Source: a virus. From it: 20,785 nucleotides of DNA. Positions 459 through 20,084 of the stretch are shown here, one piece after another (the first letter of the stretch is position 1; each line of letters opens with the position of its first letter). A program made the position numbers and the translations under genes. The notes under the pieces were generated by a model. It saw nothing but the letters and a program-made list of their open reading frames with translations. It was not told the DNA's origin and made no database searches. The stretch is from the IMG/VR virus record IMGVR_UViG_3300045019_000117, positions 1 to 20,785 of that record. One strand, written 5' to 3'.

Positions 459-893
459 TCAACCCTCCACCGCTTCGCCAAGGCTGCCGGTCGGGTAGCT
501 GACCGTCGCCGGCTGGCGGTCGATGCGGTTGGCCGGGTGATTGGTATCGACCTGCCACCCTGCCGCCAGCAGGGCGCGTGCTGCGTCGATCTCGGGGGAC
601 AGCGATTCGCTGTCGAGAAACCCGTTCAGTTCGTCGGCGTGGCGTTCGATAGCGCCCAGCAGATCGCGCAAGGTCTGCTCGATCTTGCTCGAACGCTCCA
701 GCTCGGCCACGGCGAAGGTCGGCAGCGGATCGGAATGCAGGAAGCGGTATTCCGTCTGCTTTCCGTTCGGTTCGCTGATCGTCATGCACGCACCCGGCGC
801 GCCGAGGTCGTGGAAGAAAAACACCTCCATGCCCACCGGCATGGTGAGGCCGATGGTCTTGATGGCATCGGCGAGAATCTTCTTGGTGTCCAT
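459..893 (-). CDS. Hypothetical early phage protein
   Basis: A 144-residue protein beginning MDTKKILADAIKTIGL. I do not recognise a family. The first 60 residues contain a possible beta-rich segment (MEVFFFHDLGAPGACMTI, then TEYRFLHSDPLPTFAVAEL). The middle (about 65-110) is probably helical (KIEQTLRDLLGAIERHADEL). The C-terminus is polar and probably disordered. No signal peptide or membrane segment is seen. The start has a GAGGTGTG ribosome-site-like run directly upstream and lies 1 base after the stop of the preceding gene, so the two are translationally coupled. An earlier in-frame ATG near 1055 exists but would overlap the preceding gene entirely and is rejected. Confidence 0.75.
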   Translation of the reverse strand: MDTKKILADAIKTIGLTMPVGMEVFFFHDLGAPGACMTISEPNGKQTEYRFLHSDPLPTFAVAELERSSKIEQTLRDLLGAIERHADELNGFLDSESLSPEIDAARALLAAGWQVDTNHPANRIDRQPATVSYPTGSLGEAVEG

Positions 894-894
894 G

Positions 895-1101
895 TCACAC
901 CTCCTCAATCTGGCGGCGGAAGGCGGCGATTTCGGTGTCGATCTCGCGATCAGCCGTGATGACGATGATGGCGACCGTCTTCCCGTTTTCCATGCCGAGC
1001 ACGACCGTATCCATCTTGGGTGCCTCGCGTTTCTCTGCGTCTTCGACGACGTCAACCAGAGTTGTCTTGGACCAGGCTCCGAGATTACAAATGAGTCCCA
1101 T
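895..1101 (-). CDS. Small hypothetical early phage protein
   Basis: A 68-residue protein, MGLICNLGAWSKTTLVDVVE at the start, unrecognised. It has a short hydrophobic strand-like core (KTVAIIVITADREID) and a charged C-terminal helix. The start is placed at the ATG at 1101, which follows the TGA of the upstream DUF3164 gene with exactly two intervening bases (TGA-CC-ATG). A GTG at 1107 is an in-frame alternative that adds two residues. The same TGA-CC-ATG junction occurs twice in the late operon of this phage. No separate strong ribosome site is seen, so translation probably depends on coupling. Confidence 0.68.
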   Translation of the reverse strand: MGLICNLGAWSKTTLVDVVEDAEKREAPKMDTVVLGMENGKTVAIIVITADREIDTEIAAFRRQIEEV

Positions 1102-1103
1102 GG

Positions 1104-1721
1104 TCACACCGCCGCGATATCAAGGCGGATCGGCTTGTACTCATCCTCACCGACCCGTTCGTAAAAGCGCACGTAGGACTTGCTGCCGACCACCTGCAGG
1201 CTTTCGCCGATGGCGTTCATGGCGCGCTGCCATTTCTCATCCTTGATGTCCAGCCGGCGCAGGCCGAGGACGCGACCGGTGTTGATCTTGCCTTCCTTGT
1301 CGGTGTCGAAGGCCGATTGCACCAGCACCTTGATCTCGTCGCGGCTATCGGCGCTCCAGGCGACGATGCATTCGTCGATCAGGTGCTTGGCGGCCTGAAG
1401 TCGCTCGTCGAACACCAGATGCTCGGCAACGGCGACCTGCACCTTGAAGCGGCCGTCGTAGGTATAGAGCGAGAGGTTGCCCTTCTTGCCGCCCAGGGCA
1501 ACGCCGTACTGCTCGCCGGAGAGGTCGACAAAGGCATTGATGTCGGCGAAGACGCCGGCCTTGAACTGGGCGATGAGGTTGCTCATGTCCAGCGCCTTGC
1601 GCGCCAGCTCGGAGACGAGCTGGTCGCGGGTCAGGTCGATGGGCTTGATCATGGATTCCGGCACGAGCCGGCCGTTGGCGTCGGCGCGGTAGCCGGCGGG
1701 GATGATTTGTTGTTGTTGCAT
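1104..1721 (-). CDS. DUF3164 family phage protein
   Basis: A 205-residue protein that matches by eye the DUF3164 family found in the early regions of many Mu-like prophages; its biochemical role is not known. Recognisable parts are an N-terminal DANGRLVPESMIKPIDLTRD segment, a helical stretch about residues 26-60, a central beta segment (GEQYGVALGGKKGNLSLYTY, then DGRFKVQVAVAEHL) and a C-terminal region ending KSYVRFYERVGEDEYKPIRL. The ATG at 1721 has an AGGAG ribosome site 8-9 bases upstream; the A of that site follows the T of the TAG stop of the preceding gene. In-frame starts further upstream would run through the neighbouring gene. No transmembrane segments are seen. Confidence 0.85.
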   Translation of the reverse strand: MQQQQIIPAGYRADANGRLVPESMIKPIDLTRDQLVSELARKALDMSNLIAQFKAGVFADINAFVDLSGEQYGVALGGKKGNLSLYTYDGRFKVQVAVAEHLVFDERLQAAKHLIDECIVAWSADSRDEIKVLVQSAFDTDKEGKINTGRVLGLRRLDIKDEKWQRAMNAIGESLQVVGSKSYVRFYERVGEDEYKPIRLDIAAV

Positions 1722-1729
1722 GGTTTCTC

Positions 1730-1996
1730 CTAAAAATCGAACGGGGTTTTCTCTTTGCTGCGGCAGCGGCCGCACAGGCGGTTGTGCGGGCCGTCGCTGG
1801 TAAAGGGGTTTCGGCAGCACATGCAGGCACGCGTGGTGGTGCGGGCACGGGTCAGCGTCTCGATACGGCGAGTGACGGAGGATTCGGCTCGGCCAAGGGC
1901 TTGGGCGATGGCCCAGGTGGTCCGGCCGGCGGCCAGCCCCTGGCGGATCGCGGCGCCATCGGCGGCCGACCAGCGGCTAGGGGTGCCGGTCGTCAT
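1730..1996 (-). CDS. HTH plus zinc-ribbon DNA-binding protein
   Basis: An 88-residue protein with two parts. Residues about 8-50 look like a helix-turn-helix (SAADGAAIRQGLAAGRTTWA, then IAQALGRAESSVTRRIETL). Residues 58-78 form a likely zinc-binding knuckle pair: C58-x2-C61 and C75-x2-C78, separated by NPFTSDGPHNRL. An HTH followed by CxxC-F-S-G-CxxC is a pattern seen in GcrA-like and small phage regulators, so a transcription-regulator role is plausible but unproven. Its ATG overlaps the TGA of the upstream gene (ATGA). Its TAG stop merges with the AGGAG ribosome site of the DUF3164 gene. C60 is an additional cysteine. Confidence 0.75.
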   Translation of the reverse strand: MTTGTPSRWSAADGAAIRQGLAAGRTTWAIAQALGRAESSVTRRIETLTRARTTTRACMCCRNPFTSDGPHNRLCGRCRSKEKTPFDF

Positions 1997-2325
1997 GCAT
2001 CCACCTGCAGGAAGCTGACCTGCACGCCCATGAACTCGCCGCTGACCAGCGTGCCGCCCTCGACAGGATGAAAACTGCGCGGCCCCATGCGGTCCAGCAG
2101 GCGGGCGACCGACACGCCGTCATCGCGGCGGATGTGCGCCTGCGGCAGCGGCCCGGCCATCTTCGACCAGACGACATGCAGGCCCATGGCGCGCAGTTCG
2201 CGGGTGGCATCGTTGAGGGTGGTCAGGCGATCCTTGAACGACTGGGTGAGTACCGTAGGCACCGGCATCGCGGCGGCAGCAGCCAGGGGCGAGAGGGCGG
2301 CGAGGACAAGGCGAAGGTTGGCCAT
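1993..2325 (-). CDS. Hypothetical early phage protein
   Basis: A 110-residue protein of unrecognised family. The N-terminus (MANLRLVLAALSPLAAAAAM) is hydrophobic and Ala-rich and could act as a signal or membrane anchor, although an Ala-rich helix of a soluble protein is equally possible. The remainder looks like a small alpha/beta domain with GLHVVWSKMAGPLPQAHIRR and a C-terminal beta segment (GGTLVSGEFMGVQVSFLQVD). The start is well supported: TAGGAG, formed from the TAG stop of the ATPase gene, lies 9-10 bases ahead. It is the first gene after the transposition ATPase in the leftward operon. Confidence 0.75.
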   Translation of the reverse strand: MANLRLVLAALSPLAAAAAMPVPTVLTQSFKDRLTTLNDATRELRAMGLHVVWSKMAGPLPQAHIRRDDGVSVARLLDRMGPRSFHPVEGGTLVSGEFMGVQVSFLQVDA

Positions 2326-3289: not shown

Positions 3290-4948
3290 TTATTCAAAAA
3301 TGTCGATTTCGTCGCTGCCATCCGGCAGCAGGCGTGTGGCCTGGCCTTCCAGGGTGGCGGCGTCGGCGATGGCTTCGGCGTCGATCATTCGGCCCGAGCG
3401 CGCCAGTTGTTCGTCCATCTTCTTTTCCAGGCGCTTGATGGCGTCTTCGACGCGGGCCTGGCGCTTCTCTTCGAGGCGGTTGGTCTCAATGGCCGGCATT
3501 TCGCTGACCAGGTGCGCGTCGCAAATCCACCGGCCGTCCGGCGTGCGGATGACACCGACCGCGTTGTCGAACAGGTCGTACTCCAGGACCAGCTTCTGGC
3601 CGTTGAAGGCAATCAGGTCCGGGTGCTTGTAGAAGCGTTTCCCCTGCTTGACCATCGACCGGGCAACAGTCAGCACCACTGCCTGGCGCTTGAGTTCGGC
3701 CACGTTGGCGGCGGCCGGTATCGGTACGAGATCGGACCACACCTGGGCGCGGGTAAAGCGCTCGTCCTCCGGGTGCGGCCGGGCGTGATAGCGCTCCAGC
3801 CAGGCATTGAAGGCCCGGGTGAACTCTTCGATGCTGGGCAGGCTCAGCCGACCGGCCTTCACCTCCGCCACGGTGCGGTTCAGCGCTTCCGGCGCCATGT
3901 CGTCGCCGCAGTACAGCTCGGGATGCCACAGCTTGAAGAAGTCGTCGCGCACGATGCGGAAGAAGCGCTCGATCCACCCCTTGCCGTGCGGGTTGCCGGG
4001 AATGGCATGAATCACCTGCTGGATGCCGGCCCGGGCATAGAAGCCGGTGCATTCATCGCTCATCAGGCGGTTCTTGTGGCCTGAGCCGTTGTCGACGTAC
4101 AGGAAGGGCGGCACATGGTTATGGCGGCCAAAGCACTCGGCCCACATGTTCTGCACGGCGTAGGTGCCTTCGTGTTCGTCGGCACGCCAGCCGACAATGA
4201 AGCGGCTGCGCATGTCCATGGCGACCGTCAGTTCCGGACGCCAGATGTCGCCGGTCAGCGGGTGAGCCAGATACACGTCGGCGCGGTAGCCGTCGGCCAC
4301 GTAGACATCGCCGGGCAGCGCGTTGTCGGTGGAGCGCTTGATGTAGGCCTTCTCGGTCAGCTTGTAGAGGTTGCGGCCCAGACGCGCCGGACTGTTGCGC
4401 CCCAGCATGGCCGGCACACCGGTCAGGTAGTTGCGCACCTGGTCGTAGCTCACCGCGAAGTGATCGACTTCGACCAGGTGGCGATGCACCGCCGCCATAT
4501 CCGGCTTGCTCGGCGCGTTGAAGTATTCCAGCGCCGGCCCCCACCAGCCGGCCGCCTCGACGACCCTGCCCTTGTGGCTGGGCAACAAGGCGGTGATGCC
4601 TCCCTCCCGGTAGGCCGCGCACCAGTCGCAAATTGCGCTACGACTGGGTGCGACGCGGCCGGCCTTGGCTGCCCCCTTGAGGACGGCCGCCACATGCGGC
4701 GGCAGGCGGCCGGCTTCGCCCCGTTCGATCAACAGGCCGACGGCGTTGTTTTGCGTTACCCCTTCATCGGTCATGGCGCGGACGTACAGCACCAGGGTTT
4801 CCCGATACAGCGCCGTTTGACGGGCGCGGTCGGTCGATTCGCGCCAGGGGTCGCGCTGGCGCAGGGCCAGCACCTGAGCGGTGGGCATCACCGCCGGAGT
4901 CGCCACCGTGCCGGTCTGGATGTGTTTCACCATCGCATTGCCCTTCAT
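3290..4948 (-). CDS. DDE transposase, MuA-like (rve integrase core)
   Basis: A 552-residue transposase that performs strand transfer of phage ends during integration and replicative transposition. The N-terminal about 180 residues are DNA-binding/HTH-like (SRSAICDWCAAYREGGITAL). The catalytic core follows: D219 in VADGYRADVYLAHPLTGD, matching the MuA region around its first Asp, then IVGWRADEHEG; D286 in FLYVDNGSGHKN; and E327 in GNPHGKGWIERFFR. The C-terminal part has the Mu-type beta-barrel-like segment (KRFYKHPDLIAFNGQKL) and a charged helical tail (about 485-530) that may contact the ATPase. All three catalytic residues are present and the frame is intact. The ATG follows GAGGA 8 bases upstream, inside the end of the preceding gene. 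Confidence 0.95.
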   Translation of the reverse strand: MKGNAMVKHIQTGTVATPAVMPTAQVLALRQRDPWRESTDRARQTALYRETLVLYVRAMTDEGVTQNNAVGLLIERGEAGRLPPHVAAVLKGAAKAGRVAPSRSAICDWCAAYREGGITALLPSHKGRVVEAAGWWGPALEYFNAPSKPDMAAVHRHLVEVDHFAVSYDQVRNYLTGVPAMLGRNSPARLGRNLYKLTEKAYIKRSTDNALPGDVYVADGYRADVYLAHPLTGDIWRPELTVAMDMRSRFIVGWRADEHEGTYAVQNMWAECFGRHNHVPPFLYVDNGSGHKNRLMSDECTGFYARAGIQQVIHAIPGNPHGKGWIERFFRIVRDDFFKLWHPELYCGDDMAPEALNRTVAEVKAGRLSLPSIEEFTRAFNAWLERYHARPHPEDERFTRAQVWSDLVPIPAAANVAELKRQAVVLTVARSMVKQGKRFYKHPDLIAFNGQKLVLEYDLFDNAVGVIRTPDGRWICDAHLVSEMPAIETNRLEEKRQARVEDAIKRLEKKMDEQLARSGRMIDAEAIADAATLEGQATRLLPDGSDEIDIFE

Positions 4949-6243: not shown

Positions 6244-6480
6244 TCACGCTGCTTTCAGACCGACGAGCACATCGTCAATGGTCATATCAAGACGGCCATC
6301 GACAATTCCCAGGGCGACAGCAACCTTGCGGGAATTCCCGCGCTTGCCTGGACTGTTCCCACTAAGAACCTTGCTGACAGTCGACTCCGGAACCTCAAGA
6401 CGGCGGGCAATAGAGGACTGCGCAATCCCGGCGTCCTTTATCCGCTTATTTACTTGTGCTAGCCTTTCGTTGTCTTTCAC
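6244..6480 (-). CDS. Small HTH regulator, Ner/Cro-like
   Basis: A 78-residue protein with an XRE/Cro-type helix-turn-helix at about residues 19-43 (IAQSSIARRLEVPESTVSKV) followed by a basic loop (SGNSPGKRGNSRK). It is the first gene of the leftward transposition operon, divergent from the repressor gene, which is the place and size of Ner in Mu, where Ner turns down early transcription. The start codon is GTG, with AGAGGTG 7 bases upstream. The next gene starts 8 bases after its stop. The two inverted repeats in 6511-6560 lie immediately upstream and could be its operators. Confidence 0.86.
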   Translation of the reverse strand: MKDNERLAQVNKRIKDAGIAQSSIARRLEVPESTVSKVLSGNSPGKRGNSRKVAVALGIVDGRLDMTIDDVLVGLKAA

Positions 6481-6510: not shown

Positions 6511-6560
6511 GAGAATTTAAGTTCATTCGATTTGTTTCAATTATGAGAACTTGAGTTCTC
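6511..6560. promoter_or_regulatory. Divergent control region with two operator-like inverted repeats
   Basis: Two related dyads lie between the Ner-like and repressor genes. One at 6545-6560 reads GAGAACT-TG-AGTTCTC, a perfect 7-base inverted repeat with a 2-base spacer. The other at 6511-6526 reads GAGAATT-TA-AGTTCAT, a degenerate copy. Their starts are 34 bp apart, close to three helical turns. The region is AT-rich. On the minus strand TTGAAA (6540-6535) followed by a TTAAAT-like box gives a possible but short-spaced promoter overlapping the second dyad. Operator function for the repressor and/or Ner-like protein is inference from position and symmetry. Confidence 0.68.
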
Positions 6561-6578
6561 GTTGTCAACGGATTGCCC

Positions 6579-7028
6579 ATGGATTTTTCTACTGTTTGTG
6601 CGCCTCGGATTTCCGAGGAAAGGAAGCGCCTGAAGCTCTCCCAAGATCAGGCCGGGGATTTTTGCGACGTTAGTCGCGAGATGTGGGGGAAGTACGAGCG
6701 GGCTAAGGCAGCCATGGGGAGCGACGTACTTTTCATGTTTGCCCAGGCGGGAGCGGATGCCCAATACATCCTGACCGGAATCCGCTCTGGTACAGCATTG
6801 GCGGCCGATGAGCAGATATTGCTTGATGGCTATAGAGCACTCGATCCGGCGACTAGGAAGCGCATGCTTGCCTTCGTACTCACCGAGTCCGGACCAGCCG
6901 AAGTCAGCCGACAGATCAAAGAGAAATTGAATGGAAATGGCAGCAAGACCATAACCGTTACGGCAACTGGGAATGGTGCTCAGGCAGCCGGTAGAAACAT
7001 CGTAAACAAGGGGAAAAATGAGCAATAA
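6579..7028 (+). CDS. XRE-family phage repressor with QAAGR tail
   Basis: A 149-residue protein with an N-terminal XRE-type HTH (about residues 9-57: RISEERKRLKLSQDQAGDFC, SREMWGKYERAKA) and a segment AQAGADAQYILTGIRSG typical of small repressors. It has no S24-peptidase part, so RecA-stimulated self-cleavage is not expected. The C-terminus changes character: Gly/Asn/Thr-rich, ending in GNGAQAAGRNIVNKGK, a motif repeated at the N-terminus of the next protein. Divergent position from the Ner-like gene and the operator dyads support a lysogeny repressor role. The start is placed at the ATG at 6579; TTG at 6573 is an alternative. The ribosome site is weak. Confidence 0.85.
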   Translation: MDFSTVCAPRISEERKRLKLSQDQAGDFCDVSREMWGKYERAKAAMGSDVLFMFAQAGADAQYILTGIRSGTALAADEQILLDGYRALDPATRKRMLAFVLTESGPAEVSRQIKEKLNGNGSKTITVTATGNGAQAAGRNIVNKGKNEQ

Positions 7029-7509
7029 CTACGGTTCAAACGGCGGGCAGGCAGCCGGCCGAGATATCAACAACGTCAATCTTCATCTCGGCCCTCCAAA
7101 GCCGGAATCCCAATTGCAGGTGGAATTTGCCCAGCTCACTGGAATTTGGTGCCCGAAGCCGGCACGCGAGTGGCTGGAAAGCTTGATGGAACATCATCGT
7201 TTCACTGCGCGCGAACTGGTTGTCAGCTGGAAAGCCGGATCAATTGGTTGGAATGCCGACAAAGATACAAAACGAGTAATCACGCCATGGATAGAGGCAG
7301 TTTTTGCCTACGGTATCGCTGGCCTTGTTGGAATTTATTTCCTCGCTGTCGCATGGCACACCATTTGGGGGAACGGTGCTGATCAAAAGTGGGGTATGGC
7401 CGTCGTTTATGGGACCGGCGCGATGTATCTGGGTATGTGCTGGATGGCCAATCGGTTCATGCTTTGGCCGCGCCGGGTGGCGCTACGAATCAAACGACTT
7501 GCCGAGTGA
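7018..7509 (+). CDS. Membrane protein with N-terminal QAAGRDI motif
   Basis: A 163-residue protein overlapping the repressor gene by 11 bases and preceded by AAGGGG. Residues 6-19 are GSNGGQAAGRDINN, nearly the same motif as the repressor tail. A soluble segment follows (about 30-88, LTGIWCPKPAREWLESLMEH), then two hydrophobic helices at about 92-117 and 125-150, and a basic tail (PRRVALRIKR), which predicts cytoplasmic N- and C-termini. I do not recognise a named family. Overlap with the repressor gene predicts expression in the lysogen. A role in sensing or superinfection exclusion at the inner membrane is possible but not shown. Confidence 0.78.
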   Translation: MSNNYGSNGGQAAGRDINNVNLHLGPPKPESQLQVEFAQLTGIWCPKPAREWLESLMEHHRFTARELVVSWKAGSIGWNADKDTKRVITPWIEAVFAYGIAGLVGIYFLAVAWHTIWGNGADQKWGMAVVYGTGAMYLGMCWMANRFMLWPRRVALRIKRLAE

Positions 7510-7539
7510 AGCGTTTCACGAACGACACAGGGATACAAG

Positions 7540-8151
7540 ATGAAAAAAATAGTCTGGACGATGCTGGCCTGTATTGCCATATCCGCTTGCGGCAACTCAT
7601 CGAACCTGCCCGCAGTGGCAGAAGCAGGAAAGTCGACGGTGCCCGAGGCTAAGCCGACCGAGCAACAGACACCCAAGGCGCCGCCGCCACCAAAAAACCT
7701 GATAGAGGCCATCGAAACGGCTAAGCCGCACATGACAGATATCTCCGGCGGGAATGTCGATGTTGGCGCAGCAGCATTGGCGATCTGGCGCGCGGAGTAT
7801 ATGAAGTGGTCCGAATTGCAAGAGCTGCCACCCGGAAAGTACGCATTGGTGATGAAGGACTCCGAATCACAACGCGGGAACAAGCTCTGCGTGAGCGGAA
7901 ATATCATTGAGATCGCAGTCGACAAAAGCATTCCGGGGAAAAAAATCTTCTTGGGCGGTCTCTTTGATGAAGTCGGTCGTATCTATCGATTTATTGCGGT
8001 CCGTTCTACGGGTGAAATCGTTGCGAATAGCCGGGCGAAATTCTGTGGTGTTATCACCGGCCAACAGAGCTATCCGAACAGCGCTGGCGGCGTAGCTCAT
8101 GCCGTCCACCTGGTCGGCATGTTCGACCTGGCAGAGAACAAGCGTCCGTGA
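7540..8151 (+). CDS. Predicted lipoprotein, lysogen-expressed
   Basis: A 203-residue protein with a lipoprotein signal: MKKIVWTMLACIAISACGNS, where the ISAC lipobox puts the lipidated Cys at residue 17. A Pro-rich linker follows (about 38-52, KAPPPPKN), then a globular domain of about 150 residues with GKYALVMKDSESQRGNKLCV and a C-terminal SYPNSAGGVAHAVHLVGMFD. The family is not recognised. Two Cys in the mature domain (in KLCVSG and KFCGVI) could form a disulfide in the periplasm. It begins 30 bases after the membrane-protein stop and overlaps the next gene by 4 bases (GTGA), so it is part of the repressor-led operon. Phage-encoded lipoproteins are often lysogenic-conversion or exclusion proteins; that is inference here. 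Confidence 0.8.
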   Translation: MKKIVWTMLACIAISACGNSSNLPAVAEAGKSTVPEAKPTEQQTPKAPPPPKNLIEAIETAKPHMTDISGGNVDVGAAALAIWRAEYMKWSELQELPPGKYALVMKDSESQRGNKLCVSGNIIEIAVDKSIPGKKIFLGGLFDEVGRIYRFIAVRSTGEIVANSRAKFCGVITGQQSYPNSAGGVAHAVHLVGMFDLAENKRP

Positions 8152-8441
8152 CAGCTAAACATACGCATCATGAGAATCGACGGCAGCAAATGCTGGCGCT
8201 GATTCATCTGAGGCCTTATTGGCAACTTATCGGCCCATGTGCAGGGGAAAGTACTGACCGCAAGACACTGCACTTCAGCGACCCTTTTTGGAGCAGCAAT
8301 AACGCTCCCTGGAATTGCTCCAAAGAGGATTGCGATTGCCGAATTTATTCACTCTCCCGAATCGAGTTGAAACGGTACGTCGAAGGTGGCTGCTCCAAAG
8401 GCGACGAAGCAGCAGCTTCATTCGAGATCACCTATCCATAA
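8148..8441 (+). CDS. Small Cys-rich protein resembling part of a Mu-F-like head domain
   Basis: A 97-residue protein starting at GTG, overlapping the lipoprotein stop. Its central part lines up by eye with residues 118-171 of the Mu-F-like head protein encoded at 14869-16158. Both have LRPY, then DP[FW]W (45-48 here, 148-151 there), then C-x-C-R-x-YSLSR (62-71 here, 162-171 there). In the head protein this is the Cys-containing end of the Mu-F domain. Extra Cys at 31, 57 and 82 make it Cys-rich. The nuclease domain and the N-terminal half of the head protein are absent. The gene is more AT-rich than the late genes. It may be a stand-alone relative or decoy of the head protein; a chance match of a short metal-binding motif cannot be ruled out. 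Confidence 0.65.
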   Translation: MTAKHTHHENRRQQMLALIHLRPYWQLIGPCAGESTDRKTLHFSDPFWSSNNAPWNCSKEDCDCRIYSLSRIELKRYVEGGCSKGDEAAASFEITYP

Positions 8442-8446
8442 TCTTG

Positions 8447-8466
8447 GGCTGGAAACGTTTCCAGCC
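8447..8466. promoter_or_regulatory. Perfect 20-bp palindrome between repressor and late operons
   Basis: Arms GGCTGGAAAC and GTTTCCAGCC meet without a spacer. It lies 6 bases after the last gene of the repressor-led operon and about 67 bases before the holin gene. As RNA it could fold with an ACGT loop, but no T-run follows on the plus strand (TAACCCCCC), so it is a poor intrinsic terminator. The continuous dyad equally fits a binding site for a dimeric regulator of the late promoter. No clear -35 box is seen between it and 8533, as expected for an activator-dependent late promoter. Confidence 0.55.
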
Positions 8467-8532
8467 TAACCCCCCGCAGCACCCCCGCGTAACCTCCAAT
8501 CGTCCTTTGAACGATATTTACGGAGGTTTCGC

Positions 8533-8892
8533 ATGCAACTCCCCCGCCTGTTCTGGTGGCTGGTCGCCACCATCGTGCTGCTGGCCGTTATCGGCCTGAT
8601 GTACCCGCAGCAACTCCCCGTCAGCCTTTACAAGCTGTCGCTGCTGACCATGGCCGGCGTCATCGGCTATTGGTTCGACCGCTCCCTGTTCCCCTACGCC
8701 CGGCCCGATTCGTTCATCGTCAAGATCGAGCCGGGGGATGAGTGCTGCGATATCGACCTATGCGAGAAAGGCGACTGCAAGCTGATCCCGTTCGAGATGG
8801 TCGACGGCGACGGCTTCGTGTTCGCCATGGCCATGCTGCGCCGGGCCATCATCGTCGGCTGCGCCATGCTGGCCATTGGGCTGGGGGCCTGA
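8533..8892 (+). CDS. Holin-like membrane protein
   Basis: A 119-residue protein with three hydrophobic segments: about residues 7-23 (FWWLVATIVLLAVIGLM), 30-47 (SLYKLSLLTMAGVIGYWF) and a C-terminal one at about 98-118 (LRRAIIVGCAMLAIGLGA). A conserved-looking RSLFPYARPDSF segment and a Cys/acidic patch (DECCDIDLCEKGDC) lie between the second and third. This matches the putative holins that open the lysis cassette in BcepMu-like and related prophages. It starts 3-6 bases after a GGAGG site and leads directly into the lysozyme gene. Holins make the inner-membrane lesions that release or activate the endolysin. Confidence 0.8.
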   Translation: MQLPRLFWWLVATIVLLAVIGLMYPQQLPVSLYKLSLLTMAGVIGYWFDRSLFPYARPDSFIVKIEPGDECCDIDLCEKGDCKLIPFEMVDGDGFVFAMAMLRRAIIVGCAMLAIGLGA

Positions 8893-14356: not shown

Positions 14357-14866
14357 ATGTCTGGGATGTTTGGCGAACAGCGCACGATCGCGAAACACAA
14401 AAGTGTTGAGTGGTACACGCCAGCGTGGATCTTCGACGAACTCGGGATCTCGTTCGACCTCGACCCGTCTAGTCCGCATGACATGGCGACAGTCGTTCCG
14501 GCAGCAGTCAAATACACAGTGTTTGATGACGGTCTTAAAAAGCCATGGTTTGGTCGGGTATGGATGAACCCACCCTATGGTGCAGAAACCACCCTATGGA
14601 TGCGGCGCTTTATCGAACACGGAAACGGCCTCGCACTAGTTTTCTCGCGGACGGATACAACTTGGTGCCAAGAGGCCATGCAGAAGGCCTCGGCGATGCT
14701 TTTTGTATCAGGCCGAATCGAGTTCGTACCCGGAAAAGAAAATGAGCACAAAAAATCGCGGTGCGGGGCCGGTACCGTCATGTTCGCTTTTGGTCTCGAA
14801 TGCGCAACTGCGTTGAAGAAGATTGCCGCCCGTGGCGTGTTCATTGAACGAACAGAAGGGAAATAA
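14357..14866 (+). CDS. Phage Dam-type N6-adenine DNA methyltransferase
   Basis: A 169-residue protein of the phage N6-adenine methyltransferase (Dam) family. The catalytic motif NPPY is at 71-74 within VWMNPPYGAET, DLDPSSP at 34-40 fits the start of the cofactor/target part of this family, and LALVFSRTDTTWCQEAM follows the catalytic motif. It would methylate adenine in phage or host DNA, perhaps against restriction or for regulation. It sits between portal and head protein, where Mu has no such gene, and is visibly more AT-rich than both neighbours, so it looks like a later insertion (a moron). Start: ATG after GGGGA, just past the portal stop. Confidence 0.9.
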   Translation: MSGMFGEQRTIAKHKSVEWYTPAWIFDELGISFDLDPSSPHDMATVVPAAVKYTVFDDGLKKPWFGRVWMNPPYGAETTLWMRRFIEHGNGLALVFSRTDTTWCQEAMQKASAMLFVSGRIEFVPGKENEHKKSRCGAGTVMFAFGLECATALKKIAARGVFIERTEGK

Positions 14867-14868
14867 CC

Positions 14869-16158
14869 TTGGCTAACCCCGCCAATCTCCCTTTCTCTGA
14901 AGCCATCGACTTCTTTCAACAGAAGATCAAACTGCCATCGTCCGGCTGGACGGACATCTGGCAGGAACAGAACTCGCACGCCTTCGTCGTCGCCGGCGCC
15001 ACGCATGACAGCCTGGTCGAAGACCTCTACAACGCGATTGCCAAAGCCAAGGAATCCGGCGGCTATGCCGAATTCCAGAAGGCCTTCCCGGAGATCGTCA
15101 AAAAGCACGGCTGGGCGCACAACGGAACACCTGGCTGGCGCTCCAAGGTCATCTACGACACCAACGTCACCCAGTCCTACAACGCCGGCCGTGAGAAGCA
15201 GATGCAGGCCGTCAAGCACCTCCGACCGTATGCGATGTATCGACACACCAGCATTGAGCATCCGCGCTTGATGCACAAATCGTGGGACGGCATGGTTCTG
15301 CCGCTCGACGATCCGTGGTGGGATACGCATACGCCGCAAAACGGTTGGGGCTGCAAGTGCCGTAAATACTCCCTCTCCCGCGTCGAAGCCGAACGGGAGT
15401 GGAAGAAGAAAGGCCAGGACGGCCCCGACCAGGCGCCCCCCATTGAGTGGGAAGAACGCATCGTCGGCAAGACCGGCAGCAACCCGCGCACGGTGCAGGT
15501 GCCGAAGGGTATCGATCCCGGCTTCGCTTACAACCCTGGCAAGGCCTGGCTGGAACCGCACACCGTGCCGCCGCTGCAGGGCTACGATGCAGTGCTCAAG
15601 GAACGCGGCATCGATGCGCCAGCGATCAAGCTGCCTTTGCCATCGCCAAGCAAAGTGCCGCCGCACGTCATCCTGCCGGCCGGCACGGCGCCGGAAGTCG
15701 CAGTGGCTGACTTTCTCGATGTGTTCGGCGCAACGGTCACCGAAGGTTCGGCCTTCACCGACGTGATCGGCAGCACGCTGGCGATTACCCGGGCGCTGTT
15801 CGAGGATGGCACAGGCGAATACAAGTGGCTGGCGAAGCCGGAAAAGCAGGACCGGCTGCGCTACATCAACCTGATTGCCATGACCCTGGCCGAGCCGGAC
15901 GAAATCTGGTGGGCATGGGAAGAGGACCGCGCCCACAGCAACGCCAATCCGGATGCACCGAAAAACTGGCGCCTGAAGCGCCGCTATCTGCGGGCTTTCG
16001 AGGTCGAAGGCACCGGCGAATACGGTATCTCGGTCTTTGAGTGGTCGCGCGGCGGATGGACAGGATCAACAGCTTTCATCGCCGAGCCGAGCAACGAACG
16101 CGCTCGGCTGAAGTACTTCGATAAACAGCGCGTCGGCCGTTTGCTGTTCAAGAAATGA
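14869..16158 (+). CDS. Mu-F-like head morphogenesis protein with C-terminal PBECR2-like nuclease
   Basis: A 429-residue two-part protein. Residues about 40-175 are the Mu-F (SPP1 gp7-like) head domain: TQSYNAGREKQMQ at 101-113, YRHTSIEHPRLMHKSWDGM at 124-142, then the Cys-bearing GWGCKCRKYSLSR at 159-171. A Pro-rich linker follows (about 205-275). Residues about 280-429 match the PBECR2 type of phage Barnase/EndoU/ColicinE5-D/RelE-like nuclease domain, including YKWLAKPEKQDRLRYINLI, PDEIWWAWEED, RRYLRAFEV and a final RARLKYFDKQRVGRLLFKK. Such fusions are described as polyvalent phage proteins whose toxin part may enter the cell with the DNA. The start is TTG with GAAGGGA 8 bases upstream. Confidence 0.88.
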   Translation: MANPANLPFSEAIDFFQQKIKLPSSGWTDIWQEQNSHAFVVAGATHDSLVEDLYNAIAKAKESGGYAEFQKAFPEIVKKHGWAHNGTPGWRSKVIYDTNVTQSYNAGREKQMQAVKHLRPYAMYRHTSIEHPRLMHKSWDGMVLPLDDPWWDTHTPQNGWGCKCRKYSLSRVEAEREWKKKGQDGPDQAPPIEWEERIVGKTGSNPRTVQVPKGIDPGFAYNPGKAWLEPHTVPPLQGYDAVLKERGIDAPAIKLPLPSPSKVPPHVILPAGTAPEVAVADFLDVFGATVTEGSAFTDVIGSTLAITRALFEDGTGEYKWLAKPEKQDRLRYINLIAMTLAEPDEIWWAWEEDRAHSNANPDAPKNWRLKRRYLRAFEVEGTGEYGISVFEWSRGGWTGSTAFIAEPSNERARLKYFDKQRVGRLLFKK

Positions 16159-17114: not shown

Positions 17115-18329
17115 CTATTTGTTGAGGGCGAACAAATCTTCGACCTCCTGACGCAGGGGAGACGGGGTATCGAAGAGTGCCAGGACGCGACGGCGGTCTT
17201 CCGTCAGCCAGGCATCGACATTTCCGGCATCCAGTTTCATGCCGAAGCTGCCGGGCTTGCCAAGCAGACGGGCTATCACCTGATCTCCAAGTTCTTTCTT
17301 GAAATGTCCTGCCTCCCAGTAATACGCAAGATGCGTTTTCCTGTCGCCCTTGGAGGGTATGGCCTCGAGGGTTTCCGGTCCGATGCCGCTGAAGTCCCAA
17401 AGCTGGACAAGCGCTCCCTGCGCCGCGCTCTTTTCCGCGATGCCGACCAGCATTCGCTTCCATTCTGCAAACAGCTGTCCAGCTCCAAGTCGCTCCAGCA
17501 TCATGCGAATTTGTGCGTGGTACGGGTAAATGACGATGTATGTGCTGCTACCGGCTTGTGCCGTGCGCAGGAGAATTGTTTCAAGGGTTGCTTCGTCGTC
17601 GGAGACATCTCCGTCTGGGGGCCTTAGCCGCATTGGCTTGCGTTTCCAGTTGCGCAGGTTTTCTTCCGCACGCTGGCGAAAGAGGATGTAATGGCCACTT
17701 TGCTCGACTTCCGATACGTAGTTGAGCAAAGGATTGAAACCGCGGTCGGTCAAGGTGGCGGGGTAGCGCGCACTCTGCAGGGCGACTGTGACCAGTGAAT
17801 CGCGGAGCCCGTTGATGGAGAAAACCGACTCGGCGAAGAACTTGGCGTCGCGTCGTGGCGGAAGCTTATTCGTCGATGTGTTTGTCGGCTTTGGTTCTGA
17901 TCCGCCGAGAAAGTCGAAAAAGTCGACGCCCAGCAAAATGGTCTTGGGCAAACATTTTGCTCTCTGGAGCCAAATAATCTGCTCTAGGGAAGACCTTGGG
18001 CCTCTACCGGGAATCGCATTGTTGAACGCGGATAATCCGTTGGCTGCCCACGAGGCACTATCCGGGTCAAAGCCGATTTCGGCGCGAGAGTTGCCGAAAA
18101 TGCCGGTGTTCGCACACGCATGAACGGCCCTTTCATGGCGCGCAAGCTCCCGGTGATGGTCCAGATAGGGTTTTACGGTGTTAATCCGTGGCATTCTGGG
18201 TGAGTCAAATACGCCCAGTGGATCGATGGTGACGTTGATCAACCCTGTCACGACAATCACGATGAGGAGCGTCGCAAGCATCCATCGCAAATATCCAGAC
18301 CAAGGTAGCGTCAATGGTGGTGTGTGCAT
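17115..18329 (-). CDS. SGNH-type AlgX/AlgJ-like polysaccharide O-acetylation protein
   Basis: A 404-residue protein with an N-terminal membrane anchor at about 13-33 (YLRWMLATLLIVIVVTGLIN) and a periplasmic domain. FGNSRAEIGFDP puts a candidate nucleophile Ser at 81 (GxSR motif), NNAIPGRG at about 103-110 fits the second SGNH-like block, and the C-terminal WDFSG (311-315) and EAGHFKKELGD (339-349, H342) provide the Asp and His side. Such proteins transfer acetyl groups to exported polysaccharides, working with an MBOAT partner, which is exactly the gene upstream; its TGA overlaps this ATG. Family membership is by motif and partner; the polysaccharide is unknown. It appears complete. Confidence 0.83.
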   Translation of the reverse strand: MHTPPLTLPWSGYLRWMLATLLIVIVVTGLINVTIDPLGVFDSPRMPRINTVKPYLDHHRELARHERAVHACANTGIFGNSRAEIGFDPDSASWAANGLSAFNNAIPGRGPRSSLEQIIWLQRAKCLPKTILLGVDFFDFLGGSEPKPTNTSTNKLPPRRDAKFFAESVFSINGLRDSLVTVALQSARYPATLTDRGFNPLLNYVSEVEQSGHYILFRQRAEENLRNWKRKPMRLRPPDGDVSDDEATLETILLRTAQAGSSTYIVIYPYHAQIRMMLERLGAGQLFAEWKRMLVGIAEKSAAQGALVQLWDFSGIGPETLEAIPSKGDRKTHLAYYWEAGHFKKELGDQVIARLLGKPGSFGMKLDAGNVDAWLTEDRRRVLALFDTPSPLRQEVEDLFALNK

Positions 18330-19873
18330 CAGAATTGAAAGTACAGGAATTCAGTTGGACGGCTCAAGGCGAGCATGCCAAACGCGAACAATACCCCGAT
18401 GGCGATGGCACTCCGCCGCATCGGGCGCCAGGCGATACCTGGTATTGGTTTCGATTTGGACTTGCCTTCTTCGATTAGCGCTGGCTCGAAGTTCCGCATG
18501 ATTTCCTGGGTATTCGGGGCGAAAAACGCGATCAGGCCACCCACCGCAATCCAGCACCAAGTTTCGACAAAGAATGCTCCACCGCCGAGGGTGCTCTGCA
18601 CCCCCATATTGTCGATAACACTTCGGAGCGGACCGAGGCGCGACAAGATCGGTTCGGGCAGGGCGACGCCAAAGCTTCCCAGCATGCCGAGTACGAGTCG
18701 ATTTGCGGTAGCGAGATCGGGGGCGCGGAAATAGACCCAAGCAAAAACAACACACAAGAAGGTAATAGTTACGCAAAGAAAACGGCTGAGTCGAACCGGT
18801 AAGCGGAACGGACTCCAACAGGATAGTTTCTGCCATAGCTGATTGATCACCAGATAGCTGCCATGGAGGGCGCCCCAAATAACGAAATTCCATCCGGCGC
18901 CGTGCCAAAGACCACCAAGCACCATAGTGGTAGCAAGGTTTACCTGGCGACGAATGTTGCCATGCCGGTTGCCGCCCAGCGGAATGTAGAGGTAGTCGCG
19001 CAAGAAGCGCGACAAGGTCATATGCCAACGCCGCCAGAATTCGGCGATGTTTCGGGATTTGTAGGGAGAGTTGAAATTCAGGGGCAGGCGCACGCCGAAC
19101 AGCCTCGATAGTCCGATAGCCATATCCGAATAACCGGAGAAATCGAAATAGAGTTGGAAGGCATAGGCCAACGCGCCGCCCCAGGCAAAAAAGAAAGATG
19201 GCGAGTCGACCCCTGTCGCAAATGCCGGGGCGGCATAAATCGCGAGGTTGTCGGCGATCAGCACTTTTTTCGCCAAGCCGATCGCGAAAATGGTGAGGCC
19301 GATTGCGAAATTGGATGCCGCCGGCCGGTAATTCTTGTCCTCGTCAAACTGCGGCATCATCTCCTTGTGATGCAGGACCGGACCGGCGATCAGGTGGGGA
19401 AAATAGGTAACGAATAGAACGTAATAGACAAACCGGTATTCCTTGACCTTGCCTACGTAGGCATCAGCCAGAAAGGCAATCTGCGTGAAGGTGAAGAAGG
19501 ATATACCGATGGGAAGAACGACGCCGAGAATCGGCCAGTCCGTACTCAATACGCTGTTGGCGGACGAGATGAAAAAATCGACGTATTTGTAGTAGCCAAG
19601 GAGAAGCAGGTTGGTAATGATGCCGGCGGTTAGCCCCAGGCGGCCTTTTGCACTTGTGGAATGCCTGGCGATGAAACTGCCGAGCAGATAGTTGGCGCAA
19701 ATGGAAGCGATCAGCAAAATCAGGTAGCGATAGTCCCACCAGGCATAGAAGAACAGTGAGCATGCGGCCAGCCAGACAGATCCGGCGGTCTTGCCAAGAC
19801 GTCCTGCGAGAAAAAAACCGAGGACGGTAATCGGCAAAAATAGCAGCAAAAATGAATAGGAGTTAAAAAGCAC
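18329..19873 (-). CDS. MBOAT O-acyltransferase, AlgI-like
   Basis: A 514-residue polytopic inner-membrane protein of the MBOAT family, which passes acetyl groups across the membrane for polysaccharide O-acetylation. It starts with the family-typical VLFNSYSFLLLFLPI. It contains FDFSGYSDMAIGLSRLFG (about 243-260), the FWRRWHMTLSRFLRDYLYIP block with LGGNRHG (about 279-304), and LGGLWHGAGWNFVIWGALHG (about 319-338) with the conserved His at 324 and 337. I place the start at the GTG at 19873 because homologues begin with [MV]LFNSY and GGGGA lies upstream; an ATG at 19897 would add eight residues. It is co-transcribed with the AlgX/J-like gene. It is more AT-rich than the phage genes. Confidence 0.9.
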   Translation of the reverse strand: MLFNSYSFLLLFLPITVLGFFLAGRLGKTAGSVWLAACSLFFYAWWDYRYLILLIASICANYLLGSFIARHSTSAKGRLGLTAGIITNLLLLGYYKYVDFFISSANSVLSTDWPILGVVLPIGISFFTFTQIAFLADAYVGKVKEYRFVYYVLFVTYFPHLIAGPVLHHKEMMPQFDEDKNYRPAASNFAIGLTIFAIGLAKKVLIADNLAIYAAPAFATGVDSPSFFFAWGGALAYAFQLYFDFSGYSDMAIGLSRLFGVRLPLNFNSPYKSRNIAEFWRRWHMTLSRFLRDYLYIPLGGNRHGNIRRQVNLATTMVLGGLWHGAGWNFVIWGALHGSYLVINQLWQKLSCWSPFRLPVRLSRFLCVTITFLCVVFAWVYFRAPDLATANRLVLGMLGSFGVALPEPILSRLGPLRSVIDNMGVQSTLGGGAFFVETWCWIAVGGLIAFFAPNTQEIMRNFEPALIEEGKSKSKPIPGIAWRPMRRSAIAIGVLFAFGMLALSRPTEFLYFQF

Positions 19874-20084
19874 GATTCCCCAAGCCTGTGAAAACACCCG
19901 AAAATCAGCGCTAGGCTAACACATACGAATAAGCAGAAATCCACCCGATGACTGACTTCTGTGAGGTCTGAAGAAAAGAGGGGGGAGATAACGGGCGTAC
20001 CCGACCTCTCAGATTCTGATGCGCTTACGTAGCGCCTTGGCACTAAATGCGGCCTGTTCTGCGATGAATAGCACCCGCAAACGA

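Follow-up and report, generated by a model that had tools for sequence, protein, structure and literature searches.

Exclusion genes beside a prophage repressor, prophage-made blockers of virion assembly and solitary domains of head proteins are already known. The small gene hex of phage 434 is cotranscribed with the repressor, overlaps it and excludes the heterologous phage P22 (PMC3564112); it has no known virion-protein origin, and its product reportedly prevents the RecA-driven cleavage of the repressor. In the transposable phage Fc02, the exclusion genes sie1 and gene 10 lie in the repressor region, upstream of the repressor and with no reported relation to MuF, and the lysogen transcript runs past the repressor (PMC9936078). 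Tab, the tail assembly blocker of the Mu-like prophage JBD26, stops virion assembly of related phages; it is encoded between the terminase genes with its own promoter and an anti-Tab, and its target is a virion protein, the tape measure protein (PMC10884400). The MuF head protein itself (PF04233; TIGR01641 SPP1 gp7; phrog_220) has been studied in SPP1, where gp7 enters the procapsid via the portal, supports infectivity and is inessential for assembly, virions that lack it being only about 25% infectious (PMC6316719). Stand-alone copies of the PBECR domain of such head proteins (PF18810) occur in phage genomes (Iyer et al. 2017, PMC5512222), and the available text of that study does not describe these solo PBECRs as repressor-coupled.

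Here we describe mini-MuF, a 97-residue homologue of part of the Mu-F domain whose gene lies behind the repressor of a Mu-like phage and does not adjoin the portal gene. The gene is small and in several relatives overlaps the repressor, as with Hex, from which it differs in its virion-protein ancestry. As the Fc02 genes do, it lies near the repressor of a transposable phage, on the other side of that repressor, and it would share with Tab the use of a prophage-expressed factor against a virion protein of relatives. Like the solo PBECRs it is a head-protein domain on its own, but the MuF domain to which it corresponds is the other one. The open-access literature searched yielded no repressor-coupled family of Mu-F descent.

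The repressor-holin slot and its MuF-like protein

The window, that is the whole stretch of DNA analysed, is an IMG/VR record of 20,785 bp with a gene order typical of a Mu-like transposable phage. Leftward transposition genes are followed by a rightward repressor at 6573, a short accessory slot and a holin at 8533, beyond which lie the lysis, terminase, portal (PF06074) and MuF genes. The operon is opened by an HTH regulator, the presumed lysogeny repressor (6573-7028, plus strand; phrog_8 transcriptional regulator, E 1.4e-7; weak PF13560/PF01381), and a small Ner-like HTH gene diverges from it (6244-6480, minus strand). A protein of 163 aa, probably with two membrane segments (7018-7509, plus strand), overlaps the repressor end and matched no family in Pfam or PHROG searches. 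It is followed by a 203-aa putative lipoprotein with an ISAC lipobox (7540-8151, plus strand), which has six related loci in IMG/VR, part of them in the same repressor-holin slot. Mini-MuF (8148-8441, plus strand) begins with a GTG, and this start (GTGA) overlaps the lipoprotein stop. The initial annotation had placed the gene in an operon behind the repressor, and these four genes are indeed on one strand and adjacent or overlapping. Between mini-MuF and the holin lie the perfect palindrome CTGGAAACGTTTCCAG (8449-8464), kept before the holin in many relatives, and an RNA hairpin in which the ribosome-binding site of the holin is buried (8487-8532, plus strand; -16.8 kcal/mol, z -3.5). The holin (8533-8892, plus strand; PF13272, 110.8 bits) opens the lysis cassette and forms the downstream border of the slot.

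The MuF minor head protein, the parent family of mini-MuF, is encoded at 14869-16158 (plus strand), 6.7 kb downstream as claimed. Pfam placed PF04233 at residues 80-165 (49.6 bits) and a C-terminal PBECR2 nuclease-like domain, PF18810, at residues 281-428 (100.1 bits), and the PHROG match was to phrog_220 (E 1.5e-80). Between portal and MuF, a 169-aa ORF (14357-14866) that resembles a phage DNA adenine methyltransferase (NPPYG motif) was found in only some relatives. Downstream of the head genes, 17115-19897 holds two minus-strand genes, for an alginate-O-acetylation-type MBOAT-like protein and a partner, which are possibly host flank or cargo.

The likeness to MuF had been noticed as an ordered set of landmarks, LRPY, DP[FW]W and C-x-C-R-x-YSLSR. 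This set was correct (LRPY 21-24, DPFW 45-48 and CDCRIYSLSR 62-71 in mini-MuF; LRPY 118-121, DPWW 148-151 and CKCRKYSLSR 162-171 in MuF), and the real homology is longer, with 31 of 95 positions identical to MuF residues 102-193 (BLASTP, 40.4 bits, E 1e-9). Chance similarity was ruled out by 1000 shuffled 97-mers, the best of which reached 22.3 bits. A profile of six stand-alone proteins matched 48 MuFs over MuF residues 98-185 (hhalign, 98.2% probability, E 3.8e-14), so that a likeness limited to the Cys knuckle was ruled out as well. Landmarks common to mini-MuF and the Phage_Mu_F family are R-x-x-Q, RP[YF]W, CxC, L-S and E. As stated earlier, the rest of MuF is missing: the alignment opens at MuF residue 102, the N-terminal helices are absent, and mini-MuF covers no more of the Mu-F domain than its C-terminal half.

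Single-sequence searches were far weaker. When mini-MuF was compared with 50,697 phage records by tblastn, 33 individually weak matches were obtained (E 0.02-0.6), those with a functional name being MuF, minor head or virion-morphogenesis proteins, and phrog_220 matched at E 0.055. There was no match in Pfam PF04233 or NCBIfam. The PF04233 gathering score (29.6 bits) was not reached by the window protein or by its relatives L037, L025, L137, L140 and L163, and was passed solely by an independent copy in L124 (72.1 bits; see below). No nucleotide similarity to phage DNA was found for window positions 6560-8530, tblastn of mini-MuF against plasmids gave no match, and in PADLOC it matched no catalogued defence system.

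The AlphaFold2 model of the 97-mer (pLDDT 84.7, pTM 0.74) has a helix at 2-17, strands at 24-28 and 38-42, a short helix at 46-49, a strand at 65-69 and a helix at 71-79. The MuF model (pLDDT 68.8 overall, higher across the region matching mini-MuF) has the same order of elements, with a helix at 90-114, strands at 121-125 and 143-145, a short helix at 151-154, a strand at 165-169 and a helix at 171-180, and an additional helix at 134-139 that bears the last H of HPRxxH. The shared order of predicted elements is consistent with homology and not independent evidence of it, because MuF rows were present in the alignment behind the 97-mer model. In Foldseek searches of BFVD the best named matches were head-morphogenesis proteins, at weak E values of 0.24-0.5 (best unnamed, 0.009); matches in the PDB were short and non-significant, and a sequence search of solved structures found no MuF homologue.

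A family behind the repressors of related prophages

Scans of IMG/VR and genome contigs that were anchored on MuF or run with alignments gave seven relatives. Querying with an alignment and looking beside MuF matches succeeded where scanning viral and genome contigs with mini-MuF alone gave no match, the sequence being too divergent. L037, L017, L025, L137 and L008 are in IMG/VR, L140 is on a contig of a Hydrogenophilales MAG, and L163 is on contig 28 of G867, a genome in the same taxonomic family. All eight members belong to related Mu-like prophages and sit, wherever both flanking genes can be seen, between the repressor and the holin, with MuF 6-9 kb downstream in every member whose MuF was visible. 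The family was absent from the cultured phages searched (the same 50,697 records) and was therefore reached through metagenomic and prophage sequence alone. In a tree the eight formed one group (support 100/100) beside the MuF-PBECR2 proteins of the same phage group; the tree is rough because the alignment is short and the branches are long.

The family has changed much faster than its parent, with a mean identity of 38% for mini-MuF vs 75% for the same MuF region in the same phage pairs, and mini-MuFs were hardly more similar to the MuF of their own phage than to other MuFs. This points to an old, fast-changing and exchangeable gene and not to a recent literal copy, a pattern to be expected of a conflict gene. 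In a codon-position comparison, amino-acid identity was about 48-57%, and nucleotide identity was 65-79% at second and 33-40% at third positions, with synonymous sites saturated. The high second-position and low third-position identity argues for purifying selection on the protein, and a dead remnant was ruled out by this test.

Cysteines are a further mark of the family, with four to six in every member and five in the window protein (C31, C57, C62, C64 and C82). C31, C57 and C64 are common to all eight, and C31 and C57 are new relative to MuF. The HPRxxH, W and G of MuF are missing in 8/8 members, and the CxC (C62, C64) is retained in the window protein; in L017 and L008, C62 has become F and W55 has become C, so four cysteines are kept. 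A Cys4 metal (Zn) site is likely from this pattern. The initial annotation had offered as an alternative a separate metal-binding protein sharing only the Cys knuckle with MuF; the word "only" falls with the profile homology, and the Cys-rich metal site stands as likely. A metal site and a MuF-derived decoy do not exclude each other.

Repressor coupling was seen in five of the eight members. The mini-MuF start overlaps the repressor stop by 1 nt in L037, L017 and L137 and by 11 nt in L025, and it lies 38 nt after it in L140; intervening genes separate the two in the window (1119 nt) and in L008 (981 nt). Judged by their sequences, the repressors differ in type, that of L037 being S24-type. On the other side of the slot, many phages of the group have a palindrome of consensus C[TG]GGAAA[CT][GA]TTTCC[AC]G some 40-70 bp ahead of their holin ORF, a candidate late-operon control site. 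Because this palindrome and the holin-RBS hairpin precede the lysis cassette, the slot gene falls on the lysogeny side of the boundary. An inverted repeat resembling the hairpin was also visible in L017. The lysogen of Fc02 transcribes the stretch that follows its repressor (PMC9936078). The link to lysogeny is strong by position, and the coupled starts, the boundary and the Fc02 transcript make expression of mini-MuF in the lysogen likely. The coupled start codons give good support to the earlier suggestion of production in the lysogen, and the gene proved to be kept behind repressors in related prophages.

Four members carry extra N-terminal domains. In L025 (682-978), L137 (7692-7988) and L140 (9638-9985), an N-terminal domain of about 100 residues (LPGHSF...WAC), for which Pfam gave no match, is fused to mini-MuF, and a shortened copy without mini-MuF occurs in L038 (2442-2666). 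In L163 (8166-9263, minus strand) the partner belongs to a repressor-slot family, also present in L009 (2707-3462), L036 (1826-2938), L029, L039 and L005 (1499-2332), that usually combines two membrane segments with a winged-helix-like C-terminal part; its C-terminus is mini-MuF in L163 and a different domain in L036.

Other MuF pieces in the same slot

Mini-MuF was not the only MuF piece found in this position. In another Mu-like lineage, L124 encodes a 96-aa stand-alone protein that matches positions 49-111 of the 112 in the PF04233 profile and is 61% identical over 85 aa to residues 166-250 of the MuF of the same phage, a MuF whose C-terminus gives a weak PBECR3 match. It grouped in the tree with that MuF and apart from the eight-member clade (dN 0.25 and dS 1.40 between the two; dN/dS about 0.18), and by its sequence it is an independent copy, the ninth case. 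In cultured phages the L124 fragment had 301 MuF-domain matches, always at one place per record, so that no second MuF copy was found; the MuFs of Mu and D108 are 58-60% identical to this fragment over 77 aa.

The other half of MuF was found as well. Solo PBECR2 proteins occupy the slot in L010 (1903-2307, 28.6 bits), L178 (9971-10414, 31.1 bits) and L025 (1244-1636, 25.6 bits, below the Pfam cut-off of 27.1). In L178 the ATG overlaps the repressor stop (-4), and in L025, which carries both pieces, repressor, mini-MuF and PBECR2 are consecutive. All three are without the GWxGxTxF motif conserved in the MuF-PBECR2 versions, so the catalytic alcohol residue is probably absent in at least two of them, and the proteins are possibly inactive. 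No further solo PBECR2 was found in 516 genome searches. When 20 slots were compared with the rest of each fetched region (mostly terS to gpG), no terminase, portal or gpG piece was found; the matches were to MuF alone, apart from chance ones in overlapping frames. Of 13 MuF loci whose whole slot could be seen, picked regardless of fragment presence, four (L010, L017, L025 and L037) had a MuF-derived piece in it. On this evidence, pieces of the same head protein are repeatedly kept beside the repressor in related prophages.

A different setting was seen in L183 (G128:C13), a chromosomal integron with an integrase at 3405-4376 (TIGR02249, 482 bits). An apparent single two-gene cassette (599-2057, minus strand) lies between attC-like sites at 2077-2142 and 502-588. 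One gene encodes a 309-aa protein with a Mu-F domain at its end (PF04233, 38.8 bits) and the other a winged-helix-like protein akin to the N-terminal portion of the L163 fusion (E 5.8e-23). The surroundings gave no match to the window's phage genes.

Possible roles of mini-MuF

The reading we prefer, tentatively and as one that falls a little short of probable, is that mini-MuF is a lysogen-expressed, MuF-derived superinfection-exclusion factor that would interfere with the MuF of heteroimmune relatives. It takes homology, fold order, selection, recurrent capture and repressor coupling in relatives from the sequences and infers expression, metal binding, the binding partner and the exclusion phenotype. 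The C-terminal half of a Mu-F head domain would have been captured into the repressor operon and then have evolved as a separate family. Made in the lysogen from the repressor transcript, as its position suggests, the folded MuF-like domain would engage a partner of MuF, which may be the portal, MuF itself or an injected MuF-PBECR protein, and would leave incoming or newly assembling virions without working MuF. The MuF attacked would be that of relatives whose repressor differs, heteroimmune phages that share MuF and not the repressor. Because SPP1 gp7 is inessential for assembly, blocking MuF should lower the number of infectious particles or make an injected function fail, rather than prevent head formation, and might exclude only weakly. 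A decoy that disturbs head assembly, as first suggested, may be at work, and its literal form is weakened by the loss of HPRxxH/W/G and by the own MuF being no more similar than others; for the same reasons the binding surfaces may have changed. The extra N-terminal domains of L025, L137, L140 and L163 suggest a role beyond simple competition.

The tight coupling to several repressor types would also suit a co-opted Zn-binding module that is regulatory in lysogeny, for example by stabilising the repressor as with 434 Hex, and does not act on MuF. Such a module would fit the four to six cysteines of all members, the C62 loss that W55 to C offsets in L017/L008, the lost conserved His of MuF, the absence of co-divergence with the own MuF, and the partners to which it is fused, a membrane and winged-helix-like protein in L163 and, in L025/L137/L140, a soluble N-terminal domain. 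We consider it rather doubtful, as it leaves unexplained how PBECR2, an unrelated second domain of this head protein, came to enter the slot and how L124 arrived at an independent copy of the MuF of its own phage. That two different domains of a single head protein were captured repeatedly speaks more for a MuF-directed role than for a purely regulatory one. Self-protection would also be directed at MuF: mini-MuF or a probably inactive solo PBECR2 made in the lysogen would neutralise MuF-PBECR2, whose RNase-like domain presumably enters the cell with the DNA, so that lysogens survive superinfection or protect siblings. The MuFs of slot-bearing relatives are of the MuF-PBECR type (full-length matches), that of L124 ends in the weak PBECR3 match, the solo PBECR2s probably lack, in at least two of three, the catalytic alcohol residue expected of PBECR domains (PMC5512222), and MuF toxins have been proposed to require immunity and to be confined to temperate phages (PMC5576092). 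This explanation is unlikely in our view, because immunity genes normally come after the gene for the toxin and have no relation to it, mini-MuF resembles a delivery domain and not an inhibitor, and PBECR2 of MuF is without demonstrated toxicity, Mu's own PBECR being thought inactive (PMC5512222).

Two further explanations fare worse. An accessory virion protein, made late and packaged via its MuF fold, would suit a capsid-targeted domain encoded on the late strand 90 bp before the holin in the window; the repressor-stop overlaps in relatives, and the conserved palindrome and RBS hairpin that separate the slot from the lysis cassette, make it highly improbable. A non-functional remnant of recombination or duplication would account for the silence of Pfam on the single sequence and for the patchy distribution, but eight divergent open frames that keep about 48-57% identity at saturated synonymous sites, together with translational coupling, leave it next to no credit.

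Under the preferred exclusion reading, the slot suggests that kept MuF pieces are used by the resident phage against rival phages. In a broader and doubtful form, pieces of the injected Mu-F head protein would repeatedly have become a lysogen-expressed anti-phage module, with which the prophage guards its host using its own virion parts; in some cases the module would be joined to a membrane/winged-helix-like partner, and in one it would travel as a two-gene integron cassette. Exclusion genes of prophages are established, whereas recurrently captured, repressor-coupled virion-protein paralogues were not found in the literature searched. If the family acts on MuF, it would offer a testable handle on the post-injection role of the MuF/PBECR head protein and would represent a new source of phage-derived defence.
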